From contig JACQWL010000623.1 of NCBI GenBank assembly GCA_016209255.1, forward strand, positions 1-36,265: 36,265 nucleotides of DNA. Direction: 5' to 3'. A program made the position numbers and the translations under genes. The DNA is from Verrucomicrobiota bacterium (lineage in GTDB: Bacteria; Verrucomicrobiota; Verrucomicrobiia; Opitutales; Opitutaceae). Of the stretch, positions 17,833 through 33,885 are shown one piece after another; the first letter of the stretch is position 1; each line of letters starts with the position of its first letter. Below the pieces are notes generated by a model that saw only the letters and a list, made by a program, of their open reading frames with translations, was not told the DNA's origin and ran no database searches.

Positions 17833-18594
17833 ATGAAACATCTGCTGCTGGTTCTCGCCCTAAGCGGCTCCGCCCTCCCCGCGGTCGCCGCCGAAACCTT
17901 GCACAACGGCATTGTGCAGCCGGACAAGCGCTGGGAAAAAATCTACCAGAACCCGAAGACCGCGATGGCCTTCTCCGACGGCGTGTGGTGGGACCCGAAG
18001 GATCAAGTTTTCAAGATGTATCACAGCGGTCGCAGTGCAGGCCTCGATCAGACCGGCGTGGCGTTCCTGCGGCGGGATGGATTTGCCTCGATGGACGGGA
18101 CCGGCGCGCTAACCACCCGGGCGCTGCGCTTCCAGGGCAAGCACCTGTTCGTCAATGCGGCCGTGCCGCAGGGTGAGCTGCGGGCCGAGGTTCTCGGCCG
18201 GGACGGCAAGGTGATTTCGCCCTTCACAGCGGCGAACTGTGAACCGGTGACCGGCGACCGCACCAAAGCCGCCGTCAGATGGAAGGGCGCGGCCGATTTG
18301 TCCGCCCGCGCGGGGCAACCCGTGCGGATCCGCTTTCACGTAAAGAGCGGGAGTCTCTATGCCTTTTGGATTTGCCCGGATTCAAACGGCGCGAGCCACG
18401 GCTATGTTGCGGCAGGCGGACCGTTCCTTTCGAGGCAGAGGCCACCGGCTGGTGGGAACCAGCGAAGCAAAACATCAAATGGCTGCTCCTCCATTTCAGG
18501 GCATCGACCGATCGGCACTATTTCTTCGAAGCTGGAAAATCAGCCGCGCCAGCCAAGGGTGGCCCGATGGCGCGCGAGGCCGGCGGGGAAATGA
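17833..18594 (+). CDS. Internally deleted propeller glycosidase-like protein with out-of-frame tail
   Basis: The start at 17833 gives a good signal peptide (MKHLLLVLALSGSALPAVAA). The remainder is a condensed paralogue of the 556-residue protein at 20733. ETLHNGIVQP matches its N-terminus, then DKRWEK follows directly (about 68 residues missing, including the conserved RQLFVDDFLVE). After DPKDQVFKMYHSG it jumps to the C-terminal AFLRRDGFASMDG segment (about 268 residues missing). Both joins are in frame. The homologous part ends at GYVAAGGP near 18420. From there the frame runs through the out-of-frame start of the next gene to 18594, giving an unrelated tail. The C-terminal carbohydrate-binding-like module is retained but most of the catalytic propeller is gone. 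Activity is unlikely; probably a pseudogene. Confidence 0.7.
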   Translation: MKHLLLVLALSGSALPAVAAETLHNGIVQPDKRWEKIYQNPKTAMAFSDGVWWDPKDQVFKMYHSGRSAGLDQTGVAFLRRDGFASMDGTGALTTRALRFQGKHLFVNAAVPQGELRAEVLGRDGKVISPFTAANCEPVTGDRTKAAVRWKGAADLSARAGQPVRIRFHVKSGSLYAFWICPDSNGASHGYVAAGGPFLSRQRPPAGGNQRSKTSNGCSSISGHRPIGTISSKLENQPRQPRVARWRARPAGK

Positions 18595-20631
18595 TCGTGG
18601 ACACCGGTCCTTTACAGGTGCGCATGGATCCCGCGAAAGGCGGTCTGTTCCGGGACATCAGCCTGGCACGGAAGACCATTGCCTCCGTCGGAGCCGGCGA
18701 TCTGATCCTGGCGGTCGACGACGGCAGGCAACCGGTGCCGGTCAGGATTCATGATTGGAGGATGGCGATCGAAGAATCCACGCCTGCCCGTGCGTCGGTG
18801 AAGGCCACGGGATTCTGGCAGAACGCGAACGGCCGGCCAGTGGCGCGGGTGGACGTGCGCTGCAAATTTTTCAAAGGAGAAGCGTTCATCCGCATCTATC
18901 ACACGCTGACCTGGATGACGAAGGAAGGCAACGCCGGAAGGACCGCCGCCGAGTTGAACAGCGCCACCCAGCATCCAGTCGTGGTGCGGCAGGATCCAGT
19001 CCATGCGATGCGGGTTCCCTTCATGGGTTTCACGATCCTGCCCAGCGATGCGAAAAACTTTCCGGAGATTGAGCGGGCCGTCAACCAGATCGGCCGGATG
19101 GCCATGGGGCGGTGGGTGGGGACGCAGAATTTCGGCTTGCTTCGCTACGGGATGGTCCGTTGGGGCCGGCACGAGTCGATTGAAGATCCGAACGCCCATT
19201 TCTACCGCTGGATGGATAACGGGCAATATGGCCAGCAGTTGATCCCCTGGCTGCTTTTTCTCCGCGGGGACGACCGGCGGTTTTTCGACGATGCAGAGAT
19301 CGTCTCCCGTGGAAGAGGTGATTGCGGGCACGAAGGAGTTCACGCTGCAGTACGAGAATACCCTCCGCGCGAAGGAACCAGGCAAGGAATATTACAACCT
19401 CTCCAACGGCGGCCGCGAGATGTACAACATGAACGTCTTCTGGGCGAACGCGTGGGAGGAAACATGGGATCCCGAGATTTTGCGGCTGGCGGGGAACGGA
19501 CGCACCTCCACCATCCGCGGCCAGTACCGGCCCAACGACAACACGTTCAAGGAGCCCCCTGTTTACGTGTACGACGGCCTGGTCCTCCAACATCGGCTTT
19601 CGGGCGACCCGGCGACCCGGGAGGTGATGCTCCGCCATCTGGACGTCGCATCGCTTGCCACCCATGGCGGTGTTACACGTCATCAGGCGGAGGAAGACAG
19701 CATCGCCTACCCGTGGGCCTATGAACAAACCCAAAACCGTCGCTTTGCCGATGCCGCGTGGGACATCGCGCGGGGCATGGCGGATCTCGTGCCGGACATC
19801 GATTTTTCCGGCGCGGTGATTCCCGACTATTATCCGTACGAGTACACGGGCAATTCGCTCTACCGAATACATCTGATGCCGATCCTCACGGGAGCGAGCC
19901 TTGGCCAGCAATTGGGCTATGACTGGAATCGGCCGCACGTCTTCCGCGACAACTTTTTTCAGATGTGGCAGGCACCGGGACAGAAGGAATTTCGCGCGGA
20001 AGTTTTCGTCCGGGCCCGCCAGGGAGGAGCGCTCACGATCCGTTGCCTCGCCAAAGGTCATGCAAACAACACGCTGGCGGTGGATGTGGTGCGCGCGGAC
20101 GGAAATTCCGCGGCCAACGCCACCATCGCGTCGAAACCCATCGCGTCGCAGCCCGGTCAGTTCACGCTTTTTCAAGGCGATCTGGCGGTCGGAAACGCCA
20201 AAGCGGGAGAGGTGTTCAAGGTGACGATGCGAAAGGCGGACCGGGCGCCCGTCGCCGTGATCAGCGACGCGCAGATCGTACACCATCTGCCACCTGACTT
20301 GATGCATGCCCACGAACCCCTGAGCAGTGCGCAGGTCTTCACCCCGATCCGGATCGTATCCCGGACCACGAGCAAAACCATGAGTTACTTCAACCGCGTT
20401 CGCCGGCCTTACACCCTGCGTGACGCCAAAACGCTCGACTTGATTTTTCGTCCCAAGCTGTTCACCGAGGCGGAATCAGTCCGGCCGACCGGCGCGGGAC
20501 GCATGATCGTGCTGACCAGCAGCGGCTGCCGCGGTGCTGCCGAGTGGCGGATGAAAGGCGTGGAACCGTACTTCGCCGCCAGCCCGGACGATTGGTTTCA
20601 GCCGCACGAAGCGGGCTGGCCAAGATCATAG
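18420..20631 (+). pseudogene. PcRGLX/YetA-like (exo-rhamnogalacturonan lyase-like) gene, copy 1, broken
   Basis: Homologous to the copy at 23960-26705. It begins abruptly at VPFEAEATGWW (about 90 N-terminal residues and the signal peptide missing), fused to the preceding gene in a different frame. After RIYHTLTWM about 175 residues of the central sandwich are missing in frame, and it resumes at AAELNSATQHPVVVRQDP. The alpha/alpha-toroid part (MGRWVGTQNFGLLRYG, NGGREMYNMNVFWANAWEETWDP) and C-terminal domain (MKGVEPYFAASPDDWF) are present. The frame changes near 19300-19310 (upstream frame through FFDDAE, then VEEVIAGTKEF), consistent with a 2-base loss in CCCGTGGAAG. Family members cleave or process rhamnogalacturonan-type polymers (PL26-like); this copy should be inactive. 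Confidence 0.75.
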
Positions 20632-20732
20632 ACCCCGATTCTCGTTGCACGCGTTTGACCCTGCGCCCAGTCACTCCCACGGCGACAACCGGCATTTTCG
20701 ATTCGGATAAACCTCGGCCATTGCTCATCGAC

Positions 20733-22403
20733 ATGAAATCGCTCGCTCGCGTCACGATCCCGCTCCTCGCCGTTTCCGCCTGGGCTGCCGGCGGCGAAGT
20801 TCTTTACAACGGCATCGAACTTCCAGCCGTCTGGCCGCCACGGGTTTCGGTGGCGGAATTGAAAACCTTTGAGCCGATGCGGTTGCCTTACCTCGAGCGT
20901 CCGCCCGCGGTCATCCCAATTGACGTGGGCCGGCAGTTGTTCGTGGACGATTTCCTCGTCGAGCAGACCACGCTTACGCGGCGGTTCCACAAGGCGGAGC
21001 CTCACCCCGGCAACCCCGTGCTCAGACCTGACAAACGATGGGAAAAATTCGCGACCCCGCCCGCCAGCGCCATCGCCTTCAGCGACGGTTGTTTCTTCGA
21101 TCCGGCGGACAAGCTCTTCAAGATCTGGTACCGGCCCTCCCACGGCAGCGGCACGTGTTATGCGACGTCGACGGACGGCATTCATTGGAAAAAGCCGCCG
21201 CTCGACGTGCAGCCAGGTTCGAATGTGGTGCTCCTGGGCGGACAGCGCGATTCGAGCACGATCTGGTTGGACCACGATGCGAAGGACGCGGCCCAGCGGT
21301 TCAAGTTCTTCCAGTTTCAGCGGGATTCCTGGCGCGCGTCAGTGCACACGTCGCCCGACGGGATTCACTGGAGCGCGCCGATCTGGTGCGGCCCGGCCGG
21401 CGACCGTTCGACGATGTTTTACAATCCGTTCCGCAAGGTGTGGGTGTTCAGCATCCGCGCGTTTCTAAACAAGGGCCCGGGAAAGTACACCACCAAACCA
21501 TTCCATCAATATCATCGCGCGCGAAAATACGGGGAGGCGGGCGACTTCCTCGCCGGTTCGCAATGGAGCGGGGGCGAGTTGCACGAAGATTGGCCGGCTG
21601 GCGCGCCGCCGTTCTGGGTCGCCGCCGATCGGCTCGACTCCCCGGGCGTGGCGCCTGATGAGATAAAGTCGGAACTCTATAACCTCGATGCCGCGCCCTA
21701 TGAAAGCGTGATGCTGGGCCTGTTCAGTGTCTGGCATTCGAGCGGAAAGGGCGTTGATCAGCCGAAAATCAACGATATCATGCTCGGTTTCAGTCGCGAC
21801 GGCTTCCACTGGGACCGCCCGTTCCGCGAGGCGGTGATACCCGTCAGCAACGACCCGAGAACATGGAATTACGGCAACGTGCAGAGCGTGGGCGGGGGCT
21901 GTCTCGTCGTGGGCGATCGGCTTTTCATGTATGCAAGCGGCCGCAACGCCAGGGAAGATACGACCGGCCTCTTTTTCTTCCGCCGCGACGGTTTCGCCTC
22001 GATGGAAGCGGGCGAGCGTGAGGCGACCCTCACCACGCGCCCCGTGATGTTTTCGGGGCGCCACCTCTTCGTGAACCTCGCCGCCCCGCGGGGCGCGCTG
22101 CGCGTCGAGGCACTCGATCGGAATGGCAAGATCATCGCGCCGTTCACGAAGGATGACTGCGTCGCTTTGAGCGACGACAAGACGCGATTGAAGGTAAGTT
22201 GGAAAAAAGGGGACGACCTGTCGCGGCTTGCCGGCCAGCCGGTGCGGTTCCGTTTCCACCTCACGCGCGGCGCGCTCTACGCCTTTTGGGTCAGTTCCGA
22301 CGGGAGCGGCGCAAGCCAAGGCTACATTGGAGCCGGTGGACCGGGCTTCGCCGGCGCAATCGATACCGTCGGAAATGCGTTCATCCAAGCCTCCGCTCGA
22401 TAA
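20733..22403 (+). CDS. Secreted five-bladed-propeller glycosidase-like protein (GH32/GH43-like), intact
   Basis: 556 residues from the ATG at 20733, which opens a signal peptide (MKSLARVTIPLLAVSAWAAG). The frame is open upstream to 20544 without coding features. The body carries the signature GRQLFVDDFLVE (about 66-77), shared with the protein at 30176. Repeated propeller-blade motifs follow: YATSTDGIHWKKPPLD, VHTSPDGIHWSAPIW and LGFSRDGFHWDRP. The last ~150 residues (FFRRDGFASMEAG to YIGAGGPG) form a separate beta-sandwich-like end. Such proteins are often predicted glycosidases in PVC and Bacteroidota, but no activity is assured. It is the complete paralogue of the deleted gene at 17833 and lies ahead of two lyase-like genes, suggesting polysaccharide breakdown. 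Confidence 0.8.
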   Translation: MKSLARVTIPLLAVSAWAAGGEVLYNGIELPAVWPPRVSVAELKTFEPMRLPYLERPPAVIPIDVGRQLFVDDFLVEQTTLTRRFHKAEPHPGNPVLRPDKRWEKFATPPASAIAFSDGCFFDPADKLFKIWYRPSHGSGTCYATSTDGIHWKKPPLDVQPGSNVVLLGGQRDSSTIWLDHDAKDAAQRFKFFQFQRDSWRASVHTSPDGIHWSAPIWCGPAGDRSTMFYNPFRKVWVFSIRAFLNKGPGKYTTKPFHQYHRARKYGEAGDFLAGSQWSGGELHEDWPAGAPPFWVAADRLDSPGVAPDEIKSELYNLDAAPYESVMLGLFSVWHSSGKGVDQPKINDIMLGFSRDGFHWDRPFREAVIPVSNDPRTWNYGNVQSVGGGCLVVGDRLFMYASGRNAREDTTGLFFFRRDGFASMEAGEREATLTTRPVMFSGRHLFVNLAAPRGALRVEALDRNGKIIAPFTKDDCVALSDDKTRLKVSWKKGDDLSRLAGQPVRFRFHLTRGALYAFWVSSDGSGASQGYIGAGGPGFAGAIDTVGNAFIQASAR

Positions 22404-22576
22404 AGGTCTGAAGAATGAGAATTCGTCCAGAACTGAACCCCGCGAAGAAGCCCGGCCTCGGCGCCGGATGGGCGGTACTACAATCCATGAGAATCCGGTT
22501 TCCGATCAATCAACCGTTAGCTGGGGGGATCGCGTCATCGGTTTGCGTTGGACTCGCGGGTCAGGAGGGAGGGACA

Positions 22577-23521
22577 ATGAGTCAGAACGTGGCCAAGACG
22601 GAGTGGCTGGTGCGCTGGGAGGGGCGACCGGCGGCCGGTGAGGTCCAACTCGCCGAGGAGGTGCGCTTCGTCAAGCGGCCGGCGGCGGAGCAGGCGCAGG
22701 TGACGGCCGCTCTGGTCCTCGATCGCCACGTGTACCGCAATTCCGATGTCGACGCACGAGGCTTCGTCACAATCGTTCCCACAAAGACCCCCTTGGGACA
22801 ATTGGCCGTGGACCTAAGCTTGGCGCAGGGGGACACCGTCATCGCGCGCCAGTCGCTTGGCGCACCTGGGGAACAGATGGTTGCGTTTCTGCTTCCGATC
22901 AGAAACCTGGCTGAGGGCGACTACGCCCTCACGGCCACCGTGACCGGCGCGAACGAGTCGTCCACCGCCGCGTGGCGGTCCCGGAAGATCGCAGAGACGC
23001 GTCCCGCAGGAATCAAGGAGCACGGGCGATTGCGCCTGACGCTCCCCCGCCGCGACTTCCTCAAAGATACGTCCTGGCCAGTGCGAACGGGAGTGCCTTT
23101 CCCGAAGGGAGATCTCGCGGATGCCGCCCGAGTTCGTCTGCTGGCCGACGGACAGGAAGTGCCCTGCCAGGTGGATGTGCGCGCCCGCTGGTCGCCGCAC
23201 GGGAGCATCCGCTGGCTGGGGCTGGCGTTTGTGGCGGACGACCGCGGTGGGAAGAGCCCGACCTACAAATTGGAGTATGGGGTCGAGCCGCAGGCGGTAC
23301 CTGCGCAGCCGGTGGCCGTCCAGCAGGATGCCGACGCGATCACGGTGACGACCGGTCCACTCAAGTTTGTGATCCAAAAGAAGGCGTACGACGGCCTCCA
23401 CGCGGCCTTGCTGGACACGAACGGCGACGGCTCGTGGCCGGGCGATCTCGGCGACACATTAAGCGATGAGGAGGAACACAAGGACAATCGCATCTATATG
23501 TTCCTCTCGGCCCACACATGA
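22577..23521 (+). CDS. Fragment of a PcRGLX/YetA-like protein: N-terminal sandwich plus start of RIFT barrel
   Basis: Starts at ATG 22577 behind GGAGGGAGGG, the best Shine-Dalgarno in the window. In-frame ATGs at 22487 and 22415 are alternatives; the 22487 start would add a weak hydrophobic stretch that may be a poor signal peptide. The first ~120 residues look like a beta-sandwich (WLVRWEGRPAAGEV; VYRNSDVDARGFVTIVP). Then comes a RIFT-barrel-like region with RLTLPRRDFLKDTSWPV, TGVPFPKGDLAD and SIRWLGLAFVAD, then ITVTTGPLKFVIQKK. The frame stops at 23521, before the toroid domain that full-length members have, and recognisable coding continues in other frames. It differs from the two neighbouring lyase copies and is probably a 3'-truncated third type. 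Confidence 0.65.
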   Translation: MSQNVAKTEWLVRWEGRPAAGEVQLAEEVRFVKRPAAEQAQVTAALVLDRHVYRNSDVDARGFVTIVPTKTPLGQLAVDLSLAQGDTVIARQSLGAPGEQMVAFLLPIRNLAEGDYALTATVTGANESSTAAWRSRKIAETRPAGIKEHGRLRLTLPRRDFLKDTSWPVRTGVPFPKGDLADAARVRLLADGQEVPCQVDVRARWSPHGSIRWLGLAFVADDRGGKSPTYKLEYGVEPQAVPAQPVAVQQDADAITVTTGPLKFVIQKKAYDGLHAALLDTNGDGSWPGDLGDTLSDEEEHKDNRIYMFLSAHT

Positions 23522-23920
23522 AGGCCCTGAGCTGAATCTGAACCTCGCGCCGACGTATACGGAGAGATTCAAGGCCACCGTGCCGAAGAGCGACAGTGAG
23601 TCCTGGCGCATCCTCGCGAATCCGAACGGCATGAACGGCCAGGGCGGGAGGGCAGACCTCCAACGGCGGCCAGTTCAACATCTCGGCCCTCGATGTCGGC
23701 GCGCCGCTGACGCTCAAGGTCCGTGCCCCCAAGTTTCCGGGGTGTTTCGAACTTTTCGGCCCCGACGGGAAGGCGCTCTTCAGCAGAACCCCGCGGTTTC
23801 GGCGAGACCGACGACATTCCAATTCCCCCAGCCGGCGGACCGCATACCCGGTTGGTGACCCGAATCAGCTCTGTGACGCCAGACCACGACGCCAAGGCCG
23901 TGCCCTACGGCAAGCCATAG
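23522..23920 (+). pseudogene. Frameshifted C-terminal remnant downstream of the RIFT-barrel fragment
   Basis: Coding sense continues beyond the stop at 23521 but moves through three frames: GPELNLNLAPTYTERFKATV (from about 23523), then TSNGGQFNISALDVGAPLTL and CFELFGPDGKALFSRT (from about 23656), then GFGETDDIPIPPAGGPHTRL and VTPDHDAKAVPYGKP (ending with a stop at 23920). Each step moves the frame by one in the same direction. The text reads like the C-terminus of a secreted protein, but I do not recognise its family. It may be the end of the gene that starts at 22577 after an internal deletion, or a separate remnant. Confidence 0.5.
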
Positions 23921-23959
23921 GCGAGAAAACCATGCCACCCAGGAACCCACGGAAACACC

Positions 23960-26705
23960 ATGATACGGGAAAGTCCTTACCTCCCTCTTTTGGCCTCGCT
24001 TGTCGTCACGTTTCCCACCGGCGCCGGTGCCGCGGCGACCGCTAATCGCGACGGCACTGCCCTCAGCGCTGCCGACGTCGTCGCCCGTGCGCCACGCATT
24101 GGCATCGAGGTGCTGGCGGAGGGTGCGCTGGCCGTCCGCGATTTTCCAGCCGCGACCGGATTGGTTTTCCCCGAGGCCGAATTGACCTCCGTCCCCGGGG
24201 GCCGACTGGTCGACCGCCAGGGAAGGCCGGTGCCGTTCACGGCCGAAGCCACCGGCTGGTGGAACGTCGAAAAAACGGATGTCAAGTGGTTGCTGCTGCG
24301 GTTCAAGGCGAGCGCGGATGAACGGTATTTTTTCGAACCCGGCCAGAATCCGGTCACCCCAACCGGCCCCCCGATCGCCATGGTGCGGGACGGAAACGTT
24401 ACGGTCGACACCGGCCCGCTGCGGGTTGCCCTATCTGGGACCAAGCCGGTTCTCTTCGATCAGGCGCTGCTCAATGGACATCCGATGCTCGCCGAAGTGC
24501 AGCCCCCGTTCGTCCTGACCCTGGCCGATGGCAAAGGGGTCGTCCACACCGTAATCCACAACTGGCGCGTCACGCTGGAGGAGGCGACGCCGTTGTACGC
24601 CTCGGTGAAGGCGACGGCGTTTTTCCACAGTCATAGTGGTCTGTCGTATATGGAAAAGCCCGTGGCAAGGCTGGATGTGCGCTATGAGTTCTTCCAAGGG
24701 GAGAGTTTTGTCCGCGTGTTTCATACGCTAACGTGGATGGTCAACAACTACATGGTGGGCGGTCGGGAAATTTCACTTGGCCTTCGTCCGAACCTCGGTG
24801 AGACGGGAACCGCGCGGTTGGGGATGAGCGATGCCGCCGGCCTCCCATGGGAGACGCACTGGAATCCTGCCCGGCAGCTCACCGCCCAACAGGATGAGGC
24901 CGATCACTTTGCCGTAACCGCCGGCAACCAGAAGGCGACGGAGGGAAAACGCCTGGGCGGCTGGATCAATCTACAGGGTCAGGATGGACGGGGCATCAGT
25001 ATCGCGTTGCGCCACGCCTGGCAGATGTATCCGAATGCCTTTGAAGTCGGAGACGGACGCCTTCACGTCCAGCTGTGGCCGTCGCGCGGACCGAGCATGT
25101 CATTCACGCCCCGGGCCCTGATGACGCCAGAGTTCTTCCACCATCCGGTCTGGAAAGTCCACCCCTGGACGCGCGAGGAAGGCCATTTTGTCCACGAACG
25201 GGCGCGACACGAATTCTTTCAGTACACCGCCGAGGGTGCGGCGCGGACGCACGAATTGACTTTTTCCTTCCACGACCAGACGTCGCGGCGATCGCCGCCG
25301 GAGCTGAACGCGCTCACGCAGCGGCCGCTGGCATTGCGGCAGGATCCGGTAGGTGCATTTCCTTTCCTATTATTATCACCTGACCGGCCACAAGCGGGCC
25401 CGGGAAGTGATGCAGGAAATCATTGACGGAACCCTTGCCACCACCGCGAAGGATCCGAAGGAGCTGCCCGCCTGGTATCGCCGCACCGGCGGTCGCGAGG
25501 CCTATAACATGAACGTATTCTGGGTTAACGCCTACCAAGAAACCTGGAATCCGCAGGTGAAGCGGTTTGCGGAAGAATGGAGGAACCTCTCGGCCAACCG
25601 CGAATATGTTCCGACCATCAACGAGTTTCGCCCGCCGCGCATCTATCTTTACAATGGCCTGGTCCTCCAGCAACGGCTCTGGCGCGATCCTCGTTTACAG
25701 GACGTGATGTTGCGCAATCTAAAGGGTACGGTGCTGACCGACCCCGAGAGCGGCGTGGAGCGCCACGTCGAAAATATCATTGGCAGCCAGTGGGCCTACG
25801 AACAGACGCAGGACCGCAACTACGCCGAGATCGCCTCGGACATCGCGCACTCGTTGAGCGATGTGGTGCCCGAGATGGATTTCACGCTGCCGAAGCCGCC
25901 GCCTTACAGCATTCGGGGCAATGAGTTTTATCGCCTGTATCTGCTGCCCATTCTGGTCGGCGCCACTCTCGGCGATCAGGCCGGGGTCCCGCCAAATGCA
26001 GTTTTCCGACGCGACACGTTCTTCTCGCTGAACCCCGCCGCAAAGGCGGACAAGACGGCGGTGGGCACGGCCTATGTCCGGCCGCGGCGCGAAGGCGACC
26101 TGAACGTGTTCGTCCGGCTTTCGAAGACCGGCGAGAAACCGATCGCCCTGACGGTGTCGGATTCGGCCGGACGCACGGTCGCCAAGCGCGAGTTGGTCGG
26201 CGCCAAGCCCACCGTCGTGACGGCCGAGGGCGAGGGCTATGAGCTGCTCGCCGCCCACCCGGCGATGGCGAACATTTTGCTGCCGGGCGCAAGACCGTCG
26301 GAAACGTACAAACTGGAGTTCGAGGGCTTTGATCCCGTGACCTGCGCCTTGCTCCTGGCCGACGCACAAATCGTTCACCAGGCGCGGCGAGGTGGAACCC
26401 TGGGTGTCCACGACCTGGGCGGGCAGTACTACGCGGGCGCCCGTTTCTTTACGCAAATAACGGAGGATGTTGTGACCGTCCGCTCGAAGTTCCCCGCCCG
26501 CTCGCCCTATGCCATTCGCGATGCCGGGACTTGGGAACTTCTGTTTCGTTCGACGGCGGGCGACACGGCGGAACAGCGGCACCAACTGGGCAAAGGCCGG
26601 TTGATCGCCTTTATCGCCGCGGGCGACAGTCCCCACAGCGAGAAACTCATCTCCGGGGTGGAACCGTTTTTCTCCGCCACCCGCGAGGACTGGTTTGCGC
26701 CTTGA
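23960..26705 (+). pseudogene. PcRGLX/YetA-like (exo-rhamnogalacturonan lyase-like) gene, copy 2, with internal deletion and frameshift
   Basis: Starts with a signal peptide (MIRESPYLPLLASLVVTFPTGAGA). The first frame (23960-25426) covers the N-terminal RIFT barrel (VPFTAEATGWWNVEKTDVKW) and the complete central sandwich to NALTQRPLALRQDPV. At about 25345-25355 the sequence jumps, one frame over, to the toroid: HFLSYYYHLTGHKRAREVM. About 75-80 residues present in copy 1 (starting at HAMRVPFMGF) are missing. The second frame ends at 26705 with ISGVEPFFSATREDWFAP; GTG 25353 could start it but has no signal peptide. The family acts on rhamnogalacturonan-type polymers (PL26-like). As sequenced it would give two separate halves, so it is likely inactive unless the join is an error or the halves assemble. 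Confidence 0.75.
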
Positions 26706-30175: not shown

Positions 30176-31747
30176 ATGAAGAAATTAGCCCTCATCGCTT
30201 CCCTGATCATCAGCGCGCCCTCCGGGTTCCCTGTCGCGAGCGATCCTGCCGCCGCACCGATCCCCATCGGCACGCACCGTCAGCTCGTTCTTGACGACTA
30301 TCTGATCGAGAGCAGCACGCACCTCACCCGCCGCGTGCAACCGGTGACCAAACATCCGGCCAACCCGCTCATCCTGCGCACGAACAAATTCGAGGGTGTG
30401 GGCGTCACCTTCCCGTCGGTCATCTACGATGAGCAGGAGAAAATCTTCAAGGCCTGGGTCGACGCCCACGGCCGGGGCGTGTTTTACCTCACGAGCCAGG
30501 ACGGCATTCACTGGGACCGTCCGAAGCTCGGGCTCTTTCCGCAATTCGATCCCGAGCCCAACCATCGCGTGGTCCTGAGCGGATACGAATTCGCGATCAA
30601 GGACGCCCCCAAGGACAAGCTGGATTACCTGCGCTCGCGCGAGCGCGGCTGGACCTATTTCTGCAACCTCGGCGGCGTCGTGAAGGATCCGCGCGACGCC
30701 GATCCGCAGCGTCGCTACAAGATGTCGTATCTCTGGATCGACCGGAACTACGTGCGCCCCGGTGCCACCAAAGGCGGCAAGATGACCGGGCTCGGCGTGG
30801 CTTTCAGTCCGGATGGCATCAATTGGACGCCCGTCAATCAGCCGGTCTCGGACGCAGTTTACGACTGCCCGCTCCACATTACGTTCGACGAGTCCCGCCG
30901 TCGCTGGGTGGCGCTGGCCCGCGTCTTCGGGGTCATTACGCCGGAAAAGAAGGCAAAGTACGCCGGCAGCGAGAACTTTAAATACAACGGGGGGCGCGCG
31001 GTGATCCGGCTCGAAAGCGAAGACTTCCTGCACTGGACGCCCGCCAAGGGCGAGCTCGTGATGGCCAGCGATGAACACGACTCCGAGATCTCGGAGATCT
31101 ACAGCCTGCGGGCCATTCCCTACGAAGGCATCCAGATCGGCCTCGTACACTTCTTCCACAACGAACCCGGGGATGTGCGCCTCTATTTTCAACTGGCGGT
31201 CAGCCGCGACGGAAAAACGTGGCAGCGGCTGGGCGACCGCTCGCCGTTTATCCCGCTGGGCGGTCTTGGCGAGTGGGATCGCTCCACCCACATGCCGCCG
31301 AGCTCCGATCCGTTGATGATTGGAGACGAAATCTGGATCTACTACAGCGGACGCAACATCATCCATCCCACGCGGTGGAAGCTCGACGACGACTCCCCGG
31401 CGCTGAAAGAACTGCCGCCTTTCCGCGGCGGCATCGGGCTCGCCACGCTCAAGCGGGATCGCTTTGTCGCGATGGAAGCCAGCCTGCGCCCCGGCACGCT
31501 GCGCACGAAGCCCTTCATCCATCAGGGCCGGCAGCTGCACATAAATGCCGCGGTCAAATTCGGCGCCCTCACCATCAGCCTGCTCAACGCCGATGGCAGC
31601 GTAGAGCAGAAAGTCACCGTGCCGGGAACGGACGCAGTGGATATTCCGGTGCCGCAGTTGACCGCCCTTGCCGCCCGTTCCGGCCAGCCAACGCGGCTGG
31701 AGTTCAGCATGACGAACGGGCGGCTGTTTTCGTTCTGGATCAAATGA
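30176..31747 (+). CDS. Secreted five-bladed-propeller glycosidase-like protein, second intact paralogue
   Basis: 523 residues with a signal peptide (MKKLALIASLIISAPSGFPVA). It shares the RQLVLDDYLIES signature (35-46) and the blade motifs YLTSQDGIHWDRPKLGL, VAFSPDGINWTPVNQP and LAVSRDGKTWQRLGDRS with the protein at 20733. A C-terminal sandwich ends in GRLFSFWIK, like the ALYAFWV segment of that paralogue. Possible acidic active-site residues lie in VLDDYLIE and in SEISEIYSL, but I cannot assign them. Family members are predicted periplasmic or surface glycosidases (GH32/GH43-like fold). It starts 173 bases after the TonB receptor gene and may be cotranscribed. The specific sugar is unknown. 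Confidence 0.8.
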   Translation: MKKLALIASLIISAPSGFPVASDPAAAPIPIGTHRQLVLDDYLIESSTHLTRRVQPVTKHPANPLILRTNKFEGVGVTFPSVIYDEQEKIFKAWVDAHGRGVFYLTSQDGIHWDRPKLGLFPQFDPEPNHRVVLSGYEFAIKDAPKDKLDYLRSRERGWTYFCNLGGVVKDPRDADPQRRYKMSYLWIDRNYVRPGATKGGKMTGLGVAFSPDGINWTPVNQPVSDAVYDCPLHITFDESRRRWVALARVFGVITPEKKAKYAGSENFKYNGGRAVIRLESEDFLHWTPAKGELVMASDEHDSEISEIYSLRAIPYEGIQIGLVHFFHNEPGDVRLYFQLAVSRDGKTWQRLGDRSPFIPLGGLGEWDRSTHMPPSSDPLMIGDEIWIYYSGRNIIHPTRWKLDDDSPALKELPPFRGGIGLATLKRDRFVAMEASLRPGTLRTKPFIHQGRQLHINAAVKFGALTISLLNADGSVEQKVTVPGTDAVDIPVPQLTALAARSGQPTRLEFSMTNGRLFSFWIK

Positions 31748-31901: not shown

Positions 31902-31997
31902 CCGGGCGAATCCAGCCTTGCCCGCGGTCCGCCCTCGTGAAGCTATTTGCTTCCGATCGGCAGGCTGCGAATCGCTCCCCCCTCGATCCTACAAATG

Positions 31998-33533
31998 ATG
32001 AAATTCCTCCTCACCCTTATCGCCTCCTGCCTGGTGGCAGGGGCAAACCTCGCCGCCAGCGACCCGAAGCCCGCGGCATCTGCGGCCGTTTTCAAAGCCG
32101 GTTTCGCCGAGCGCGACATCACCCCCGACATCGGCATGGAAGCGCCCGGCGGCTATGGCAAGAGCTACCACCGGACGTTTCACGACCCCTGCAAAGTCCG
32201 CGCCGTTGTCTTCGATGACGGCCGGAAGCGCGTGGCGCTGGTCGGTCTCGACCTTCTCTTCGTGACCCGCCACCTCGTGCAGGAAGCCCGCGCGGAGATT
32301 CAGAAACGGTGTGGCATTCCGGCCGACGCCGTGCTCATCGGCGCGTCGCACTCGCATTCGTCAGGGCCGATCGGCATGGGCGAACCAGGGGATTTCGACC
32401 GCGCCTCGCCGTTGGTGCAGGAACTGGTGCAGGACAAGAGCATCGTCTCCAATCCCGGCTACACCCAGCTACTCAAGAAGCAAATCATCGAGGCGGTGGT
32501 GCAGGCTGACGCGGCCCGCGCCGATGCAAAACTCGCGGTGGGCTTTGGCCACGAGGACAAGGTCGCCTTCAACCGGCGCCTGCGCATGAAGAGCGGGCTG
32601 TCCTTCTCGCATCCCGGCGCCGGCAATCCCGACATCCTCGGCTACGCCGGCCCGATCGATCCGCAAGTCGGCACGGTCGGCGTGTGGGATTTGAAGAACA
32701 ACCTGCTCGGCGTGATCGTGAACTTCTCCTGCCACGCCACGACCAGTCCGGGCGGCATCTCCGCCAACTGGATCTGGTCGATGGAAAAAACCCTGCGCGG
32801 CGCGACCGGCAACGCCGCGTTGCCCGTGGTCTTCATGCAGGGCGCGTGCGGCGACGTGACGCAGGTGGACAACCTGACGAAGTTTCAGAACCCCGGGGCG
32901 GAGGAGTGGTGCGAGCGGGTGGGCGGAAGGGTGGGCGCGGAGGCGTTCAAGACGCTGCTGCTCATCCGGCAGGGCGCGGGCCGCGACATCCCCGTGGATT
33001 CGCGGCAGAAGGTCTGGAAAATCAAGCGCCGCGTGCCGACGCCGGAAAAGGTCAAGCGGTCGCTCGAACTGGTGCAGCAGGGCCCGGCAAAAGCCGGCGC
33101 GACGGAGTGGACGTTTGCGAAGGAGATCCTGGTGCTCGACGCCATCCTGCAGGTGCGGCCCGAGGTGGAGGTCGAGGTCCAGGCCGTGCAGGTCGGTCCG
33201 GCGGTGTTCGTGTCCAACCCGGCGGAGTATTTCGTGCAATACGGCCTCGACATCAAACAGGGCAGCAAATTCCCGTTCACGTTTCCGGTGGAACTGGCCA
33301 ACGGCATCGTCGGCTACGTGCCGACCGAGGAGGCGATGGGCCCGAACGGCGGCGGCTATGAAACGCGTCTGAGTTCCTACAGTAACCTGGAAGTTTCCGC
33401 CGGCCGGCAGTTCGCCAATGCGGGCATCGAACTCGCGAACGAGCTGACGCCGGGCCCGATCCCGCTCCCGCCGCCCGCCCCGCCGTTCCGGTCGCCCTGG
33501 GCGTACGGCAACCTCCCGCCCGAGTTGAAGTGA
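31998..33533 (+). CDS. Neutral/alkaline ceramidase-like secreted hydrolase
   Basis: 511 residues from ATG 31998 (or 31995), opening a signal peptide (MKFLLTLIASCLVAGANLAA). The N-terminal part matches the neutral/alkaline non-lysosomal ceramidase domain: FKAGFAERDITPDIGMEAPG; VALVGLDLLFV; and IGASHSHSSGP at about 115-124, where the family uses a His-x-His motif for Zn2+. NFSCHATTSPG (H246) may supply another zinc ligand, and FMQGACGDVTQ is the conserved glycine-rich turn. The C-terminal ~100 residues (VQVGPAVFVSNPAEYFVQYG, NGIVGYVPTEEAM) also fit. Many PVC genomes carry such proteins beside carbohydrate genes, where the true substrate may be another amide or ester. True ceramide hydrolysis is not established. 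Confidence 0.82.
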   Translation: MKFLLTLIASCLVAGANLAASDPKPAASAAVFKAGFAERDITPDIGMEAPGGYGKSYHRTFHDPCKVRAVVFDDGRKRVALVGLDLLFVTRHLVQEARAEIQKRCGIPADAVLIGASHSHSSGPIGMGEPGDFDRASPLVQELVQDKSIVSNPGYTQLLKKQIIEAVVQADAARADAKLAVGFGHEDKVAFNRRLRMKSGLSFSHPGAGNPDILGYAGPIDPQVGTVGVWDLKNNLLGVIVNFSCHATTSPGGISANWIWSMEKTLRGATGNAALPVVFMQGACGDVTQVDNLTKFQNPGAEEWCERVGGRVGAEAFKTLLLIRQGAGRDIPVDSRQKVWKIKRRVPTPEKVKRSLELVQQGPAKAGATEWTFAKEILVLDAILQVRPEVEVEVQAVQVGPAVFVSNPAEYFVQYGLDIKQGSKFPFTFPVELANGIVGYVPTEEAMGPNGGGYETRLSSYSNLEVSAGRQFANAGIELANELTPGPIPLPPPAPPFRSPWAYGNLPPELK

Positions 33534-33689: not shown

Positions 33690-33885
33690 GGAAAGGGCAG
33701 CTGGTGACACCAGCCCCGCCGGCCAAGAATCTCGAATCGAAGGCGGACTCCACCCGGTCCGTCGGGACGGCCCAACCAAAGCGCCCTCTACCTGTCTATC
33801 CAAAATACAAGTGGACGATGATGGTAAAAGGCCGCGCGAACGTGCATGCTCACGTGGTCAAACCTTTAGCTGCAAAACCCCTGCC

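Follow-up and report, generated by a model that had tools for sequence, protein, structure and literature searches.

The two lyase-like genes in the window, the 36,265-nucleotide stretch of DNA analysed here, are both broken, and we give a probability of about 55% to the reading that this reflects a very recent, deletion-dominated inactivation of lyase genes in a polysaccharide-utilisation locus. Two lyase paralogues, a third gene resembling PcRGLX (the Penicillium rhamnogalacturonan exolyase, PDB 5xq3) and one propeller-type gene would have been inactivated, for the most part through separate, clean deletions inside the genes, each removing about 0.2-0.8 kb. The losses would be present in living cells, and the lyase step would have been dropped, with the sulfatases and receptors retained. 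What emerges is a group of old paralogues that have been disrupted, nothing unusual in kind; the idea of reciprocal halves making up one enzyme, suggested in a preliminary description of this DNA, does not hold.

The locus and its intact relative

The window spans the entire contig C554 of the draft genome G000, a metagenome-assembled genome (MAG). Its gene content, with sulfatases, TonB receptors, PcRGLX-like genes and propeller-type genes that have no match in Pfam, is that of a polysaccharide-utilisation locus rich in sulfatases, from an Opitutus-like bacterium. The sulfatase neighbourhood suggests that the substrate is a sulfated glycan, and the lyase genes, judged from their sequences, probably encode polysaccharide-cutting enzymes. 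Six neighbours in the window (three sulfatase-type genes, a TonB receptor, the propeller-type gene at 30176 and the gene at 33709) are intact and align along their length to homologues in the genome G024 without an internal stop. The glycan locus also encodes a ceramidase-like protein (31947-33533), for which the PF04734 score of 22.3 bits lies below the cut-off of 32.1.

A search with the C-terminal lyase piece at E 1e-20 matched two of 142 genomes, G000 itself being one of them and G024, a MAG of the same genus named 'Opitutus sp. GAS368', the other. Scanning a public genome collection with the lyase piece returned a single locus, CAMDOF010000029.1 of MAG TrH-25oct19-122, which is taken as the same record as contig C29 of G024 (G024:C29). 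This one contig carries both lyase genes at full length, with stop-to-stop frames of 1194 aa (lyase 1) and 1122 aa (lyase 2), or 1054 aa and 1061 aa from the likely starts. Two sulfatase genes, a TonB receptor and a Laminin_G_3 gene are located between propeller 1 and lyase 1 in G024; the gene order of the window differs, since the orthologues of these two sulfatases sit upstream there.

Junctions and broken genes

Losses were measured by alignment to G024:C29, with split points judged against a relative and not against the true ancestor (Table 1). The pieces between the window junctions are 76-90% identical to G024 at the DNA level (blastn), and the transitions are sharp at five of the six junctions (J1, J2, J3, J5 and J6); thus, the truncations are not due to chance. 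The junctions listed in the preliminary description at ~18020, 18420, 18930, 19305 and 25350 were recovered as J2-J6, and J1 is additional. Three of the six (J3, J5 and J6) change the reading frame, so that, compared with the intact orthologues, the frames are disrupted by five losses, one gene fusion and three frame changes, as is usual for pseudogenes. Five of the joins could be placed, and under the best split they share about 1-4 bp; a single tolerated mismatch would raise this to as much as about 10 bp at J1. The stretch left between J1 and J2 measures just about 105 bp.

Base composition was considered as a cause of the losses and rejected, the G+C content being 0.57-0.65 in the six missing segments and 0.55-0.65 in the seven retained ones. 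A deletion of 11.9 kb was likewise rejected as a full account of J3, because the sulfatase orthologues that lie between the two genes in G024 sit upstream in the window.

Table 1. Positions of the propeller-type and PcRGLX-like genes, their remaining pieces and the junctions in the window. Residues are numbered in the 1194-aa (lyase 1) and 1122-aa (lyase 2) frames.
Feature	Position	Strand	Description
Propeller-type gene 1 remnant	17833..18420	+	Signal-like N-terminal end, ~105-bp middle (17915-18019), C-terminal ~400 bp (18019-18420)
Lyase copy 1, piece A	18420..18925	+	G024 lyase 1 residues 216-385; out-of-frame join to propeller remnant (J3)
Lyase copy 1, piece B	18933..19310	+	G024 lyase 1 residues 567-692; J4 before, J5 after
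Lyase copy 1, piece C	19310..20631	+	G024 lyase 1 residue 755 to end; 1321 bp aligned to G024 without gap
Propeller-type gene 2	20727..22403	+	Apparently intact; full-length alignment to G024 propeller 1 with 60% identity
Third PcRGLX-like gene, broken	22577..23970	+	PcRGLX_1st-type part to ~23467, then short C-terminal-looking part
Lyase copy 2, N-terminal part	23960..25350	+	Own start, signal-like N-terminus; to G024 lyase 2 residue ~523
Lyase copy 2, C-terminal part	25350..26705	+	G024 lyase 2 ~665 to 1115; other frame after J6
J1	~17915		204 bp lost, multiple of three; propeller gene 1
J2	~18019		801 bp lost, multiple of three; propeller gene 1
J3	~18420		Propeller gene 1 fused out of frame to lyase 1
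J4	~18923-18937		537 bp lost, multiple of three; placed only to about 15 bp
J5	~19310		188 bp lost, frameshift; lyase copy 1
J6	~25350		425 bp lost, frameshift; lyase copy 2

By its two losses relative to the G024 gene at C29 23872-25515 (blastn/tblastn), propeller gene 1 has been reduced to about 0.5 kb. A further propeller-type gene, at 30176-31747, is 37% identical to the one at 20727, and neither of these two proteins has a match in Pfam or NCBIfam. The label 'propeller' was taken over from the preliminary description; searching the PDB with a profile of three propeller-type sequences gave only weak matches to a mannooligosaccharide phosphorylase (E 0.019) and a hypothetical glycoside hydrolase (E 0.063).

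The third broken gene matches PF19501 with 30.7 bits (cut-off 22.1), and its start resembles PcRGLX_1st proteins of other genomes. Its tail is read in three successive frames, with switches near 23645 and 23797 (frame scan, three-frame translation). Four of 11 homologous loci align to the gene at E 1e-3 and none of them past ~23467, which is a weak test as the loci include only 1.5 kb of flank. The small frame changes look like ordinary decay, the one sign of it in this locus, base-calling error being possible.

Two old paralogues

Alignment to the intact G024 genes confirmed that there are two lyase-like copies and that neither is full length. The two G024 proteins are 43% identical over 1080 aligned residues, differing at 57% of the aligned positions. 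The pieces of copy 1 match their orthologue lyase 1, and those of copy 2 their orthologue lyase 2, with identities of 67-83%; in one of the alignments the ranges were 67-81% for copy 1 and 69-79% for copy 2. The window copies are therefore ancient paralogues and not the product of a fresh duplication, and the two lyases appear to have been inherited as separate full-length genes, as they still are in G024. The adjacency and homology of the copies might point to a recent tandem duplication followed by reciprocal loss; this scenario is refuted by the presence of two intact orthologues in G024, each far closer to its window copy than the two are to each other, and, the losses not being reciprocal either, we regard it as highly improbable.

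In copy 1 the N-terminus is indeed missing (75 residues if one counts from the likely start of the G024 orthologue), and the central loss, estimated earlier at about 175 residues, measures 537 bp or 179 residues; this copy keeps the segment from HAMRVPFMGF to DDRRFFDDAE. Copy 2 keeps its N-terminus, the retained part covering lyase 2 residues 104-523 by blastn and starting from 39 by tblastn, and the cut begins right after RQDPV, at 25349/25350, as had been described. The size given for this loss, 75-80 residues, did not stand, however: 425 bp are missing, corresponding to about 142 residues. The smaller figure probably arose from a comparison with copy 1, in which 188 bp (about 62 residues) of an overlapping stretch are gone as well. 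A location of the missing lyase 1 segments on another G000 contig was rejected, since a query with the whole G024 lyase 1 gave five matches in G000, all on the window contig; with an assembly that is 85% complete, this is a weak test of their absence elsewhere in the genome.

The preliminary description saw reciprocal deletions in the two copies, which would together cover one complete protein. This is not borne out, because 38 aligned residues, located within G024 lyase 2 626-664 (stop-to-stop frame) in the NHFNTRGYPTGY region, are missing from both window copies, so that together they cover no complete protein. A domain-level subdivision, with both truncated copies expressed and complementing each other as one enzyme, would fit the retention of the N-terminal half in copy 2 and of the segment after RQDPV in copy 1 as well as the low dN/dS of the retained pieces (see below), but this ratio carries the imprint of evolution in common with the intact orthologue and is hardly informative on the period since the break. 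Each copy is, moreover, split by an internal frameshift (J5 and J6), copy 1, fused out of frame to another gene, lacks both a start and a signal peptide of its own, and complementation would have to work between paralogues that are 57% different. The joint coverage and separate starts that mark a split gene were not found for this pair. Complementing halves are effectively excluded on these sequence grounds, with a probability that we would put near zero, and the lyase pieces are probably non-functional remnants. This removes a tempting claim, whether the losses are real or an artefact.

Age of the breaks

Over 1764 retained codons of the broken genes, dN was 0.114 and dS 0.807, with a dN/dS of 0.141 (95% 0.120-0.166). 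The three closest intact neighbours gave 0.146 (0.124-0.178) over 1477 codons and all six intact neighbours, more diverged genes included, 0.171 (0.154-0.189) over 3450 codons; single retained pieces ranged from 0.04 to 0.23. No stops or frameshifts were found within the retained lyase and propeller pieces. As 3.3% of single changes make a stop, the inactivation would date back at most about 0.017 neutral substitutions per site, which is little compared with the divergence from G024. Since the retained pieces are free of stops and their dN/dS is as in the intact neighbours, the breaks are either very recent or present only in the assembly.

The relaxed selection and accumulated small lesions by which pseudogenes are recognised were not seen in the broken genes, small frameshifts occurring only in the third gene. 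Judging by the retained codons, long neutral decay is excluded; if the decay is real, it has only just begun. Neutral decay after tandem duplication had been one of the explanations offered earlier, and its loss of both copies survives as one of two live readings, but neither the recent duplication nor the accumulated neutral change does.

Assembly error or recent loss

An assembly error is the other live reading: the contig would have been stitched from non-contiguous pieces where coverage was poor or strains varied, and in the living cells the lyase genes would be whole. We consider this a serious possibility, though at somewhat less than even odds. G000 is a fragmented MAG, its 6,775,947 bases being spread over 647 contigs, with a completeness of 85.2% and a contamination of 4.6%. 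Each of the six propeller and lyase lesions is large and clean, the pieces left are free of stops and frameshifts and show unchanged selection, and clean losses also affect unrelated G000 genes (the C150 locus and, by our reading, the C29 gene, both described below). However, overlap-based assemblers are not expected to produce such joins without junction-bearing reads, and the few shared bases at the joins together with the 105-bp piece would be hard for them. No N was found in 254,087 bases (the window and 19 further stretches), and the small frameshifts of the third gene look like real decay. In addition, 13.9 kb of contig C510 of G000 are collinear with G024 and show no losses inside genes. 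G024 has about 1.1 kb more in this region, with an extra reading frame of 433 aa, and the G000 frames are whole on both sides, so that the difference is the absence of a whole gene and not an internal loss.

RND-type genes also count against an assembly error: of the 15 in G000, nine are complete, one is broken and five are cut by contig ends, the end having been confirmed in two cases and read from coordinates close to base 1 in the other three; the 15 genes are our own grouping of 21 matches. A survey of sulfatases in G000 returned 97 matches in all, from which no count was drawn, as broken ones could hide among the weakest.

A loose frame-break scan gave 26 breaks in 621,511 bases of G000 and four in 351,678 bases of G024 (p=0.008), the stretches having been chosen partly for other reasons in both genomes and thus not being strictly random. 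A stricter filter, applied to G000, G024, G014 and G020 only, left eight and one, respectively (p=0.17). The scan is crude and is given little weight, many of the 26 loose hits looking like ordinary gene ends, and by the same loose scan three other genomes show more breaks than G000 (G008 with 14 in 107 kb, G017 with five in 62 kb, G014 with 12 in 53 kb); G020 had none in 77 kb, and the five strict hits of G014 look like wrong-strand readings. The window has two loose hits in 36 kb compared with eight strict ones in 621 kb of G000 (p=0.10), a comparison that mixes two filters; a looser first version of the scan had given six breaks for the window, compared with 19 for the remaining 218 kb. No indispensable gene was recognised among the 26 loose breaks in G000, a sample too small to count on. 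Similar breaks appear to affect what we take to be a dehydrogenase-like gene in stretch L123 and a tricorn-protease-like gene in L134.

Two of the disrupted loci elsewhere in G000 could be described more closely. On contig C150 (L016 9500-11850), a locus of TIR/WD40 type (the TIR label, unlike WD40, being our reading of the sequence) shows clean losses of 184 and 1084 bp relative to G024:C23, which fuse two genes; the second join shares up to 7 bp. On contig C29 of G000 (L073 3735-5100), a metal-efflux RND gene is reduced to positions 584-861 of a profile with 1021 positions. Its start presumably sits directly upstream, with frame changes on both sides, the gene apparently lacking most of its first half and its end, and it adjoins a gene that we take to be outer-membrane-factor-like.

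Real loss is favoured because of the few shared bases at the joins, the 105-bp piece enclosed by two joins and the small frameshifts in the third gene. The distribution of the lesions in the window is also in its favour, as they fall on lyase-type genes and one propeller gene and leave six neighbours whole. Against it stands the odd spectrum of six large lesions and no small one in the retained pieces. It might also be possible, if unlikely, that this lineage loses accessory genes by active deletion, with clean excisions of 0.2-1 kb, several per gene, outpacing point lesions. The lyase locus, the C150 locus and the C29 pump gene would then be cases of the same process, in which the homology at the joins would be the short one seen here and at the one C150 join.

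If the recent loss is real, the window catches a bacterium shortly after it gave up the lyase step of a glycan-degradation locus, with sulfatases and uptake genes still in place, and it bears on the question of shared foraging. If the losses are an artefact, draft genomes can hold clean internal losses that resemble biology.

Comparison with known systems

Recent pseudogenes of Sodalis-allied symbionts offer one comparison. As in those symbionts (PMC3499248), the window shows disrupted versions of genes that a relative has whole, with several hit in one locus; its lyase and propeller genes differ in showing only large clean losses and no stop or small frameshift. In the Sodalis-type symbionts of that study, genes are inactivated most often by small deletions that shift the frame, and nonsense mutations make up 16-19%; large deletions escape its counts, which makes the comparison with the window a loose one.

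The likeness to PcRGLX-like proteins (PF19501/PF21345/PF21346) is remote. The central beta-sandwich (PF21345, PcRGLX_2nd) reaches its cut-off of 23.5 bits in both G024 lyases (35.1 bits for lyase 1 and 37.4 bits for lyase 2) and, as a partial match, in both window fragments (27.4 bits for copy 1 and 37.2 bits for copy 2). The C-terminal alpha/alpha toroid (PF21346) reaches 30.3 bits in G024 lyase 1, above the cut-off of 23.8, with no match at E 0.001 in G024 lyase 2 or the window fragments. The N-terminal RIFT barrel (PF19501) was not matched at E 0.001 in either lyase, be it the window copies or those of G024, and NCBIfam returned no family for eight proteins. A two-sequence lyase profile found chains of PcRGLX as its best matches in the PDB, at a weak E of 0.035, and phmmer with lyase 2 alone gave no PDB match at E 0.1. 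The segment lost from copy 2 overlaps profile positions 429-585, the stretch that best matches the PcRGLX structure in this weak match.

Sulfatase-rich polysaccharide-utilisation loci of Verrucomicrobia cluster sulfatases, TonB receptors, propeller-type genes and lyase-type genes. The window clusters the same four kinds of gene, but it differs in that its gene order is unlike that of G024 and its lyase genes are broken.
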